From IMG/VR virus record IMGVR_UViG_3300033149_003758, positions 1 to 30,543 of that record: 30,543 nucleotides of DNA. One strand, written 5' to 3'. The first letter of the stretch is position 1; the number at the start of each line of letters is the position of its first letter. A program made the position numbers and the translations under genes. The DNA is from a virus. Positions 13,020 to 30,319 of the stretch are shown piece by piece. The notes beneath the pieces are model-generated. The model saw only the letters and a program-made list of their open reading frames with translations, was not told where the DNA came from and searched no databases.

Positions 13020-13862
13020 TTAAAATAAAATATATTTTTTTTCGTCTTCTGTTGGAGGCTCAAACGGAGAATCGGAATACTTCTTGCCACCACCCATTAA
13101 ATAAATAAACTTACATCCAGTTATTCTTCTCACCATTTTTCTTAGTTCGCTATATGGACAAATCGTAGAGACAATTATATCAAATCCTTGTTCCCTAAAT
13201 GTTTTGGCAGCCCTGGCAATTCTTAAATTATTTTCTATTCTGTCTTTTTTAGAAAATCCCAAATCTTTTGAAATGCTGTTTCTCATTGCATCTCCGTCAA
13301 GCCATATTGCATATTTAATTTTTAATATTTTCTTCGCTAATGTAGATTTTCCAGCCCCAGAGCGTCCGAATATCCATATAACCCGATTATGCAACTTCCT
13401 GTGACAAGCCCTACAAAGAGTTACGCCATTATTGATATTAAACCTTTCTTCTTTAAATATTCCCCATCTCATTTTGTGGTGTGCCTCCAAATACCCACGC
13501 TGTCCACAAAACTGACAAGTATAATTATCTCTTTCAAAAACTGCCTCCCGCCATTTTTTATATTCTATTCTATCCCTATCTCTTTGCTTCCCACCTTTCC
13601 AGTTTGGGTGCTTTTCTCCCCTTATTTGCAAGAATTTCTTTCCCTTGTTCCACGGAATTTGCCCTTTCCTAAATTCAGTTTTGGGAGAGCGTCTTTTCCC
13701 TCTTAGCCATTTCCAATAACATCTATAAGAACAAAATTTTCTATATCCTGGAATTTCTTTTCCACAATACAAGCACTTTTTTGTCGGCCTTTTATTGTGA
13801 GGGACAATACCCTTCTTAAACCAACCTTTATTTATTCCATTTTTAGGAATTCCTTTTGGCAT
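13020..13862 (-). CDS. HNH homing-endonuclease-like domain fused to APS-kinase-like P-loop domain
   Basis: This 280-residue protein has two parts. Residues 1-158 look like a phage HNH homing endonuclease: repeated K-G/WNKG elements, a treble-clef zinc finger (C30, C33, C44, C48), then HNH residues C116, C119, H128-H129, N145, C150, C153 and H158. Residues 160-280 start abruptly with VIWIFGRSGAGKST (Walker A, 166-174) and continue as an adenylylsulfate kinase: WLDGDAMRNSISKDLGFSKKDRIENN and VSTICPYSELRKMVR. The C-terminal lid of CysC is abbreviated. The ATG overlaps the upstream stop as TAATG, as a native kinase gene would. I infer that the HNH gene invaded the kinase start. A TTG just before the kinase part could serve as a second start. 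Confidence 0.85.
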   Translation of the reverse strand: MPKGIPKNGINKGWFKKGIVPHNKRPTKKCLYCGKEIPGYRKFCSYRCYWKWLRGKRRSPKTEFRKGQIPWNKGKKFLQIRGEKHPNWKGGKQRDRDRIEYKKWREAVFERDNYTCQFCGQRGYLEAHHKMRWGIFKEERFNINNGVTLCRACHRKLHNRVIWIFGRSGAGKSTLAKKILKIKYAIWLDGDAMRNSISKDLGFSKKDRIENNLRIARAAKTFREQGFDIIVSTICPYSELRKMVRRITGCKFIYLMGGGKKYSDSPFEPPTEDEKKYILF

Positions 13863-16255: not shown

Positions 16256-17285
16256 TTAGTTGTTAGATATAATTCTAACGCCTGCGTCTCTTAGTGAAGC
16301 AGCGCCATAAGCAATGCTTCCATTGACTTTAATCCTCAAATCTTCGCCTCTTTGTTCGTTCAAATCAATCGGTAATTGGGTAGCATAAGCAACGGCTTCT
16401 CTGTGAACCAATAGATTTCTATGCCCACCTTCGCTTCCAGCAGTTCCAGAAGGAATTTGCTCTTCAACGAAAACAGGAATACCATAGAGAACACCTTTTG
16501 CTATAGCCGCACCAACTACTGGAGCTTGTCCTTGTCCCCATCCTGCTTGAGAAGCATCATAATACTTAGCGTTTTTGATGACCTCTCTCCAATAAGCATA
16601 TGGATGGAAGAAGAACGCCATATCATTCAAGGGAATACTATTGGATTCAGCAATGGAAATTGCTTTCTCAATGCTGGTAGCCAAAATATCAGTTGCAGAA
16701 TCTCCAACACTATTCGTAATGTAAGTGGCAGCGGTGTAATCCCATAAAGCGCTATCAAATGTCTTAGCCAAATCGTGTCCCAAATCTCTCATATAAGTGT
16801 TCAATACATTATATTTGTCGTGGATTTGAGCAGCTTGGAAATCAGACAGATAGAACGCAGCACCCTTCCATTGGTTGATGGTCAGAGTAGTAGAAGTATC
16901 AGATACATCAGTAGCCGTTACTTCACCATTAGTGGTTTTAATGTCACTAACGGTAAACCTCTGAGCAAACTTTGGGATGTGCACGGAATCTCCGCCAGCC
17001 TCTACATCACTGGAATAATCAGTAAAGAATTTAGCAGCAACCAAATTCTCCTTAAAATATTCAGTAACTTTCGGACTCCAAATCTCCAATTGTTAATCTT
17101 ATAGTTGAATTCCTATAAGTTCAGACTGTCGCATCGCCTTTCGGCGTCCCCTCGCTCAGTCGTTCACGGTGGCTTTCGCCTTCCGCCCTGTTAGCATCTC
17201 AGCCTCCAAGTCAATCAGAGGGGATTTTACACGCCCAAGATTATGGTTCAGGCGTGAAAACAGTATAAGTCTGTGCTTTAACCAT
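16256..17285 (-). CDS. Major capsid protein, gene split by a group I intron
   Basis: This is an HK97-fold coat protein. Exon 2 (17086-16256) encodes 276 residues beginning EIWSPKVTEYF. They include FFTDYSSDVEAGGDSVHIPKF and a C-terminal SIAYGAASLRDAGVRII typical of phage coat proteins. Read alone, exon 2 would need a TTG start one codon after a TAA. Exon 1 (17285-17250) is ATG plus 11 codons, MVKAQTYTVFTP; its ATG overlaps the scaffold stop as TAATG. Joining after CCT at 17250 to GAG at 17086 gives VFTPEIWSPKV, the usual P-E-I-W coat start. The spliced product is 288 residues. The coding sequence is therefore join(17250..17285, 16256..17086), complement. Confidence 0.88.
17087..17249 (-). ncRNA. 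163-nt group I self-splicing intron in the capsid gene
   Basis: The exon ends in U and the intron ends in G, as in group I introns. P1: exon CACGCCU (17256-17250) pairs with the guide GGGCGUG (17236-17230), with a U-G wobble at the 5' site. P10: AAUCUU (17242-17237) pairs with exon 2 GAGAUU (17086-17081). P3: UCCCCUC (17224-17218) with GAGGGGA (17153-17147). P6: CGG/CCG topped by GGC-GAAA-GCC (17180-17171). P7: GACUG (17161-17157) with CAGUC (17128-17124). P8: CGCC-GAAA-GGCG (17146-17135). P9: CUUAUAG (17119-17113) with CUAUAAG (17104-17098). P4/P5 are weaker (UUGG/CUAA with AGC/GCU). There is no internal ORF. The length is small for this class. Confidence 0.87.
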
Positions 17286-28609: not shown

Positions 28610-30319
28610 TTATCTCTTTTGATTGATTGCGACCTTTAATTTATTCAATGCCCAAATTAGGGGGAATAGCAACACCCTCATTCTGCCAACAGATGGGCGT
28701 TCTAATTGTTCCATAAAGTTTTTGGCTATGGTTTCATCAGAGAAATACGGCATCGGATCAACCGCTCCCCCATATTCGGGATTTATGCTTTTCCACTTCC
28801 CGTTCTCGTATTTATACACATATAATCCATAATGCAGGTGCGTTCCCCTGTATGGCTTCCCCGTTGTAGGTTTGGGATATACGAGCCCTGAGTTACCAAG
28901 CCAAAGCGGTTTTCCGTTTCTTCTAACATAGATAATGTGATTTGGAACTTCTATACAATAAGCATAATCATTATATTTTTTCTTCTCGGTTTCATTTTTC
29001 CGTAAGGTATATCTTGTATGTTTTCCCTCTAATAAAATCCAGTATGGTTTTTTTGAAATAATCTCCTGCCCATTTATGAATGCTGATTTTTTTCTATTTA
29101 CTTTGAGAGGATTTCTTTCGTGAATAACCCCATAAGTACCAATCTTTAATAACAATTCTTGCATTTGATCAGCTAATAATTTTTCTCCAAAAACATAATA
29201 TTTTGAACCTTTATGTGTCCATCCGTCTCCCAACCAATAAGCATTAACAAATATTTTAATTTGGCGAGGAGATAAATCAAAAATAAATTCAGGAATTTTT
29301 TTATTATTTTTCTTTCCATATTGTTGTAAGTAGTCATATAGTTGTTTGGAACAAGCGATAAAATCTTCTCTCGCTTGATAAAAATGTAATGGCAACCTTT
29401 CCAACAAGCGAATAATTATTTCTCTTTTCTTTTTATTATTAAATGATTGAGTTATACCACTACGTCCTACATTAACTTGTAACCATCCATCCGACAACCA
29501 CCAACCCAAGAATTCAAGCCAGTCGTCCATTAAAATTTTTAAGGAAGGATTAGTTCTTGTTGTTCCCCATCTGTCTCCGACATATTTTCTTGCAGGCAAA
29601 ATAAACCATTTTTTTTCTTTTCCTTTCCAATTTCCACCCCCCGCCCTAATACTACTTATTTTTCTCGGCAACTGATTAAAAGGAATTATTCTTGGTTTTT
29701 TCGTTTTGCGATTTTTAAATCTCCTCTCACCCTCATCCCAGACAACAATATTATGGTCTTCTGAAAACGCAAAATCTAATTTATCGTTTCTTCTTTGTTT
29801 AGGATAAATAAGTTCATCGTAATATTTTTTAATATATCCTGTGGGTTTTTTATATTCTATATTAAGTGTTTTTGGATTTAATGTAATAACTTTTTCATTT
29901 CTGTTAAGCTTTTCAAATTTTTTCCATCCCTCATCTGTTAATATCTCTGTTTCTTTATCAAAACAATTGCCCATTCTGCCGATTAACTGCCCCCGTTGGA
30001 CACAATCACCAACCCTGACCAAAACCTCGCTCAGATGCCAATATACGCTCTTGTAGAGGGTATTCCCGTCCTGATATCTAATATATACCCCATTTCCTCT
30101 GGTTGACATCGGGTCATCGGCAACAACCCTTATGACCACTCCTTTGTGAGCGGCCACTATTCCTATCCCATAGCAGTTTATCTCATTGCCATTAACAAAA
30201 TCAATGCCATTATGCCCTGGCAATCCCCATTGTTTGTATCTGTCGGAGTTTGCCCCAAACGGCTGACTTATTGTCGTTTTTTGTCCTTTCCTATATTTTA
30301 ATGGCGAGTGTAATTTCAT
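28610..30319 (-). CDS. M23-family peptidoglycan hydrolase (endolysin) interrupted by an intein
   Basis: The 569-residue precursor has N-extein residues 1-118 with the M23 metal motif GHNGIDF (His36, Asp40) and YWHLSEV (His95). The C-extein, residues 477-569, has SGLVYPKPTTGKPYRGTHLHYG in parts, with the HxH motif at His494 and His496. Between them, residues 119-476 are an intein. The spliced product would be about 211 residues, normal for an M23 lysin domain, with a basic C-terminal tail. It cuts peptide cross-links of peptidoglycan. The gene follows a structured RNA and precedes the holin-like gene, so it is the phage lysin. Splicing is required to bring the metal ligands together. Confidence 0.9.
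   Translation of the reverse strand: MKLHSPLKYRKGQKTTISQPFGANSDRYKQWGLPGHNGIDFVNGNEINCYGIGIVAAHKGVVIRVVADDPMSTRGNGVYIRYQDGNTLYKSVYWHLSEVLVRVGDCVQRGQLIGRMGNCFDKETEILTDEGWKKFEKLNRNEKVITLNPKTLNIEYKKPTGYIKKYYDELIYPKQRRNDKLDFAFSEDHNIVVWDEGERRFKNRKTKKPRIIPFNQLPRKISSIRAGGGNWKGKEKKWFILPARKYVGDRWGTTRTNPSLKILMDDWLEFLGWWLSDGWLQVNVGRSGITQSFNNKKKREIIIRLLERLPLHFYQAREDFIACSKQLYDYLQQYGKKNNKKIPEFIFDLSPRQIKIFVNAYWLGDGWTHKGSKYYVFGEKLLADQMQELLLKIGTYGVIHERNPLKVNRKKSAFINGQEIISKKPYWILLEGKHTRYTLRKNETEKKKYNDYAYCIEVPNHIIYVRRNGKPLWLGNSGLVYPKPTTGKPYRGTHLHYGLYVYKYENGKWKSINPEYGGAVDPMPYFSDETIAKNFMEQLERPSVGRMRVLLFPLIWALNKLKVAINQKR
28892..29965 (-). mobile_element. Intein with LAGLIDADG homing endonuclease (358 aa)
   Basis: The intein begins with Cys119 (CFDKETEILTDEGW, block A), has block B around FAFSEDHNIVVW (His189) and ends with CIEVPNHIIYVRRNGKPLWLGN, Asn476, followed by Ser477. 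Two LAGLIDADG-type motifs, LEFLGWWLSDGW (268-279) and IFVNAYWLGDGW (356-367), give the endonuclease. The usual penultimate His is Gly here, as in some other phage inteins. It sits at the conserved G-N/S-T/S-G site just before the HLHY metal motif of the M23 enzyme. Confidence 0.9.

Follow-up and report, generated by a model that had tools for sequence, protein, structure and literature searches.

The 30,543 nt of DNA examined here (IMG/VR record IMGVR_UViG_3300033149_003758, from an uncultured phage; the whole stretch is called the window) raise the question of where the major capsid gene begins. In the list of open reading frames the capsid ORF (17089-16256, minus strand, 277 codons) opens with TTG. 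A sequence-only reading had pointed to this opening and to an exon of 12 codons, begun by TAATG and lying upstream across a gap of 163 nt, a description borne out by the sequence and its coordinates, and had proposed that the gap is a group I intron. Structure, covariation, splice boundaries (from homology and from the empty site in siblings of L126) and a patchy distribution among relatives make it almost certain that the 5' end of the capsid gene is split by a compact group I intron that lacks an endonuclease and belongs to a phage subfamily, with splicing predicted from the sequence.

The split capsid gene

17250-17285, minus strand: exon 1 of the major capsid gene, ATG...CCT, MVKAQTYTVFTP (sequence; in relatives that lack the intron, a peptide of this type runs directly into exon 2)
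17087-17249, minus strand: group I intron, 163 nt, without an ORF (126.5 bits with covariance model R1; site occupied in L126, L128, L129/L151, L131 and L147)
16256-17086, minus strand: exon 2 of the major capsid gene, EIWSPKV..., PF25209 Phage_capsid_4 and phrog_267 major head protein (profile matches)

The ATG of exon 1 overlaps the stop codon of the upstream gene (TAATG), and the last base of its 12 codons is T17250; exon 2 opens with GAG ATT TGG, and joining T17250 to G17086 gives MVKAQTYTVFTP/EIWSPKV. Without such joining, the exon-1 frame is interrupted by stop codons within the intron. Each of the two best PHROG capsid scores rises when exon 1 is added, one from 91.3 to 95.0 bits and the other from 41.3 to 46.1 bits.

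Structure of the intron

The intron begins with G17249 and ends with G17087, and the elements of its core and of the hairpin that follows were located by alignment, by the covariance model (CM) or from the sequence itself.

17218-17224, minus strand: 5' strand of P3, UCCCCUC (alignment and CM)
17187-17210, minus strand: P4 (CUUG/CAGG) and a short P5 (GGC/GCU), with J4/5 and J5/4 adenosines (folding, alignment and CM)
17167-17185, minus strand: P6 (CGG/CCG) and P6a (GGC-GAAA-GCC) (alignment and CM)
17157-17161, minus strand: 5' strand of P7, GACUG (sequence; comparison with L126 and L131)
17147-17153, minus strand: 3' strand of P3, GAGGGGA; 7/7 P3 pairs covary in the family (alignment and CM)
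17135-17146, minus strand: P8, CGCC-GAAA-GGCG (alignment and CM)
17124-17128, minus strand: 3' strand of P7, CAGUC (sequence; comparison with capsid-site introns)
17098-17119, minus strand: P9, CUUAUAG...CUAUAAG (sequence)

P7, the guanosine site, is present as GACUG/CAGUC and is pseudoknotted with P3. Every pairing drawn by eye in the sequence-only reading (P1 with its U-G pair, P10, P3, P6, P7, P8 and P9) is found in the window, and the stretch of exon 1 plus intron folds with a z-score of -3.2, with one of 200 shuffles folding as well. The short P5 deviates from the family consensus in the CM alignment, no P2 was seen in the window intron, and no ORF lies inside it that could represent an endonuclease gene, a trait of homing introns. 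Classical T4-type introns of subgroup IA carry P7.1 and P7.2 between the 5' strand of P7 and the 3' strand of P3; neither is found in the window intron, where this interval consists only of AGC (17156-17154), and membership in subgroup IA was rejected.

A subfamily of phage introns

A blastn search of the 163 nt against phage records gave a match of 73% within a split coat gene of P22 type (MW202674), and a core pattern running from the 5' to the 3' strand of P7 matched at least 119 stretches of viral contigs. Covariance model R1 was trained on 39 non-redundant ORF-less introns from other viral contigs, none of them from this capsid site. Under the group I structure 97.1% of the cells in the training alignment pair, compared with 77.3% in shuffles, and pairing drops to 39-50% in slid controls; changes on both sides occur in 22 of the 30 pairs, with covariation in P3, P4, P5, P6 and P8. 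Since P7 was prescribed by the search pattern, it does not vary in the training set, and its variation is visible only among the capsid-site introns, where L126 and L131 have GACUA/UAGUC versus the GACUG/CAGUC of the window. R1 scores the window intron with an E-value of ~7e-30, and a scan for a second intron of the subfamily in the window found none (next best place, 9.4 bits).

One pattern covering the full core occurs in 65 stretches of viral contigs versus three in 257 Gb of genomes from bacteria and archaea, so that the subfamily appears, from these pattern counts, to live mainly in phages. Sampled members of the family split predicted head, portal and tape-measure genes. An intron of the same subfamily (92 bits) lies at 2493-2628 of Roseobacter phage CRP-118, between two ribonucleotide reductase CDSs, and the loci L011 and L199 each hold two matches to the subfamily pattern.

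The Rfam group I model (RF00028), which had been proposed as a check, failed to find the intron: searches of the window and of the locus at E<=10 did not match it, and at the gathering score no group I match was obtained in 16 sampled family loci. Membership in RF00028 takes a score of at least 50 bits, a value that the window intron does not reach. Since the T4 nrdD intron scores 105.3 bits with the same Rfam library, the model works, and its silence is not counted against the intron; the missing match is read as a limit of the model and not as the lack of a defining trait of group I introns. The RF00028 seed is without ID and IE introns, and phage introns exceed the current subgroups (PMC11878797).

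The same site in related capsid genes

An alignment-based search yielded 29 capsid relatives, to which another scan contributed L155-157; searches that started from a single capsid or terminase sequence returned zero capsid relatives, making alignment-based queries necessary, and none were found in GTDB genomes. Introns with a LAGLIDADG-like ORF, located in the peripheral P6 region, interrupt the identical P/E codon boundary in L126 (656 nt), L128 (608 nt), L131 (628 nt) and L147 (650 nt), while L129/L151 carry an ORF-less intron of 202 nt there. The L128 contig (also L117, under which it was among the core-pattern matches) shares a downstream gene type with the window phage; its capsid is split as VFRP/ELWTP, and its ORF matches LAGLIDADG_1 with an E-value of 0.00022, just below the Pfam cut-off. 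The site is uninterrupted in L124/125, L127, L130 and L132-136, and in the more distant L137-146 and L148-150. Intron-free relatives read an exon-1-like peptide straight into exon 2 (for example TVFKP/EVWSP, RAFTP/EIWSP). L155-157, close siblings of L126, are intron-free and read MATQTFRAFTP/EIWSPRINY; exon 2 of L126 and of L157 is 96% identical in protein and 85% in DNA. The splice sites proposed from the sequence are those at which the relatives are split, and the expected T-P-E-I-W product has a continuous counterpart in intron-free capsids. Relatives that start at the TTG or lack exon 1, named beforehand as evidence against the intron, were looked for, and the relatives instead carry the exon-1 peptide.

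In the capsid tree, intron-bearing tips are scattered among intron-free tips, the pattern to be expected if a mobile intron is gained and lost. The window and L129 introns are reciprocal best cores (87%), and their exon 2 DNA is 63.5% identical. Because among the relatives the site is found empty, with an ORF-less intron or with an ORF-bearing one, the window intron most likely derives from a LAGLIDADG-type homing intron at the same position that lost its ORF; we infer the direction and timing of the endonuclease loss, as well as past homing, from this comparison. The capsid site would then show a homing cycle frozen at several stages.

A second capsid position is interrupted in L152, which is 99.5-100% identical to L139 over the compared stretches except for a 192-nt insert in L152. 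The insert (L152:3505-3696; empty at L139:3487/3488) is ORF-less, has T before it and G as its last base, and is weakly matched by R1 in a wider search (17.6 bits, E 0.046). The insert appears to be a further small group I intron, whose empty site L139 preserves.

Splice sites and the start of the capsid protein

17250-17260, minus strand: exon side of P1, UUUUCACGCCU, with the splice-site U at 17250 (sequence, pairing test)
17237-17242, minus strand: intron side of P10, AAUCUU, pairing with GAGAUU of exon 2 (17086-17081) (pairing test)
17225-17236, minus strand: internal guide sequence of P1, GGGCGUGUAAAA (sequence, pairing test)
17087-17096, minus strand: 3' terminus of the intron, UUAACAAUUG, with the final omega-G (motif UAACAN(1-6)UG in the family)

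In the window, P1 pairs at 7/7 positions with a U.G at the splice site, and P10 at 6/6. Both pairings follow changes in the exon sequence: among just six capsid-site introns, with sites set by homology and several pairings containing one or two mismatches, cognate exon-guide pairs of P1 total 38 where permutations average 29.3 (2/720 permutations as good), and cognate pairs of P10 total 31 where permutations average 26.7 (4/720 as good).

The terminus of the intron bears on the explanation in which no splicing takes place, translation of the capsid begins with the TTG at 17089, and the 163 nt upstream are a structured leader or a dead intron. The 277-codon ORF does open at that TTG, and NTG directly precedes exon 2 in all capsid-site introns. 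However, the NTG belongs to a conserved terminus, UAACAN(1-6)UG, which occurs downstream of 80 of 104 family cores versus 6 of 104 control stretches (a few matches fall inside the P9 loop and not at the intron end), and the terminal ATG of L091 cannot be a gene start since its frame stops after seven codons (CAA ATT AGG GTA TGG TGG TAC TAA). In the window sequence the TTG is without a Shine-Dalgarno-like sequence, whereas exon 1 is preceded by AGGAGGAGG, and the exon-1-like openings of intron-free relatives likewise argue against a start at the TTG. Given the family-wide terminus and the L091 frame, the TTG is best read as the last three bases of the intron and not as a start codon; the TTG as capsid start was rejected, and the unspliced explanation is very improbable. 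An addition to the intron reading, that the terminal NTG allows translation of unspliced or 3'-cut RNA, so that splicing efficiency sets the ratio of full-length to N-terminally shortened capsid, is equally doubtful; if true, it would be a regulatory use of the intron.

Under the intron reading, the transcript would fold into a P3-P8/P4-P6 ribozyme, guanosine would attack after U17250 of the P1 U.G pair, and the freed hydroxyl of exon 1 would attack after omega-G17087 while P10 keeps exon 2 in place. Ligation would join ...TVFTP to EIWSP..., producing the only properly started capsid message. We infer splicing itself, and with it any speed and efficiency, from the sequence comparisons described above. 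The stop codons in the exon-1 frame must be skipped somehow, and the exons could be joined without splicing, for example by translational bypass of the kind seen in T4 gene 60; but a complete group I core with covariation, a U.G splice site, P10 and omega-G, together with homing-endonuclease-like ORFs inside the same element in relatives, leave this idea scarcely credible. A variant that is compatible with the preferred reading holds that the same intron is spliced, but only with the help of a protein from the phage or its host. In its favour, splicing in vitro has failed for some predicted phage introns (PMC11878797) and the window intron is very compact; against it, the core elements and P9 hairpin of the window intron are all intact. 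A protein requirement is possible, though rather unlikely.

Size and comparison with known introns

At 163 nt, the window intron is the shortest of the capsid-site introns (the others span 202-656 nt) and shorter than the family members without an endonuclease gene for which both ends are predicted (174-260 nt, n=29); it is short because only P9 follows the core and the P6 region holds no ORF. The suggestion that it is among the smallest introns of its kind holds with regard to compactness but not as a record: a degenerate 67-nt rDNA intron has been called the smallest for which ribozyme activity was demonstrated (PMC3160393), and group I introns of Jug phages average ~206 nt (PMC12363816). 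The latter are likewise short and reside in essential phage genes, with metatranscriptomes supporting splicing of 37/76, but they come from huge gut phages (PMC12363816).

That the capsid gene relies on self-splicing is retained as a prediction, while the novelty attached to it had been overstated. Splicing of a capsid intron in mycobacteriophage LittleE was demonstrated by RT-PCR and N-terminal sequencing (PMC3706429); as in the window, the major capsid gene is interrupted after a splice-site U, the intron ends in G, and splicing restores the full-length capsid. The LittleE intron differs in being ~819 bp long with a LAGLIDADG-like ORF, and is described by its authors as most likely group I, so that the likeness is one of description. 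Lactococcal phage Tuc2009, as cited in PMC3706429, also has a group I intron in its capsid gene, again alike by description. The introns of L126, L128, L131, L147 and L129/L151 share with the window the codon boundary and homologous capsid genes, but are 608-656 nt long with an ORF or have an extra 3' domain. The coat-gene insert of Caudoviricetes sp. ctn9Y15 (MW202674.1, L122) is of the same subfamily (R1 120.4 bits), but its coat gene is annotated as P22 type and the insertion site is different. This coat gene (L122 2693-4208) was deposited as two P22 coat CDSs plus a hypothetical protein, and the gap is the intron. Phage capsid-gene group I introns have precedents in LittleE and Tuc2009, and phage introns that are small and lack an ORF are common; what is new here is a compact member of a widespread phage group I intron subfamily.

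Other possible mobile elements in the window

28610-30319, minus strand: ORF of an M23 peptidase whose middle part contains a LAGLIDADG_3 domain, with intein-like CFDKETEILTDEGW
13020-13862, minus strand: in-frame fusion of an HNH endonuclease domain and an APS-kinase-like P-loop domain

The insert in the M23 peptidase ORF is probably an intein, and the HNH part is possibly a homing gene in or beside a kinase gene. No intron of the capsid-site subfamily was found near the HNH/APS-kinase ORF (R1 scan, <=9.4 bits).

Implications

Capsid and other structural genes serve as markers in viromics, and the subfamily splits such genes unflagged by the Rfam model; R1, or the short core pattern, can be used by others to locate such introns. 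The capsid site, which is found empty, with an intron that encodes an endonuclease, and with an intron that does not, offers a comparative series for the homing cycle in nature. For the phage itself, the findings suggest that a ribozyme reduced nearly to its core is required for the most abundant virion protein of this uncultured lineage.
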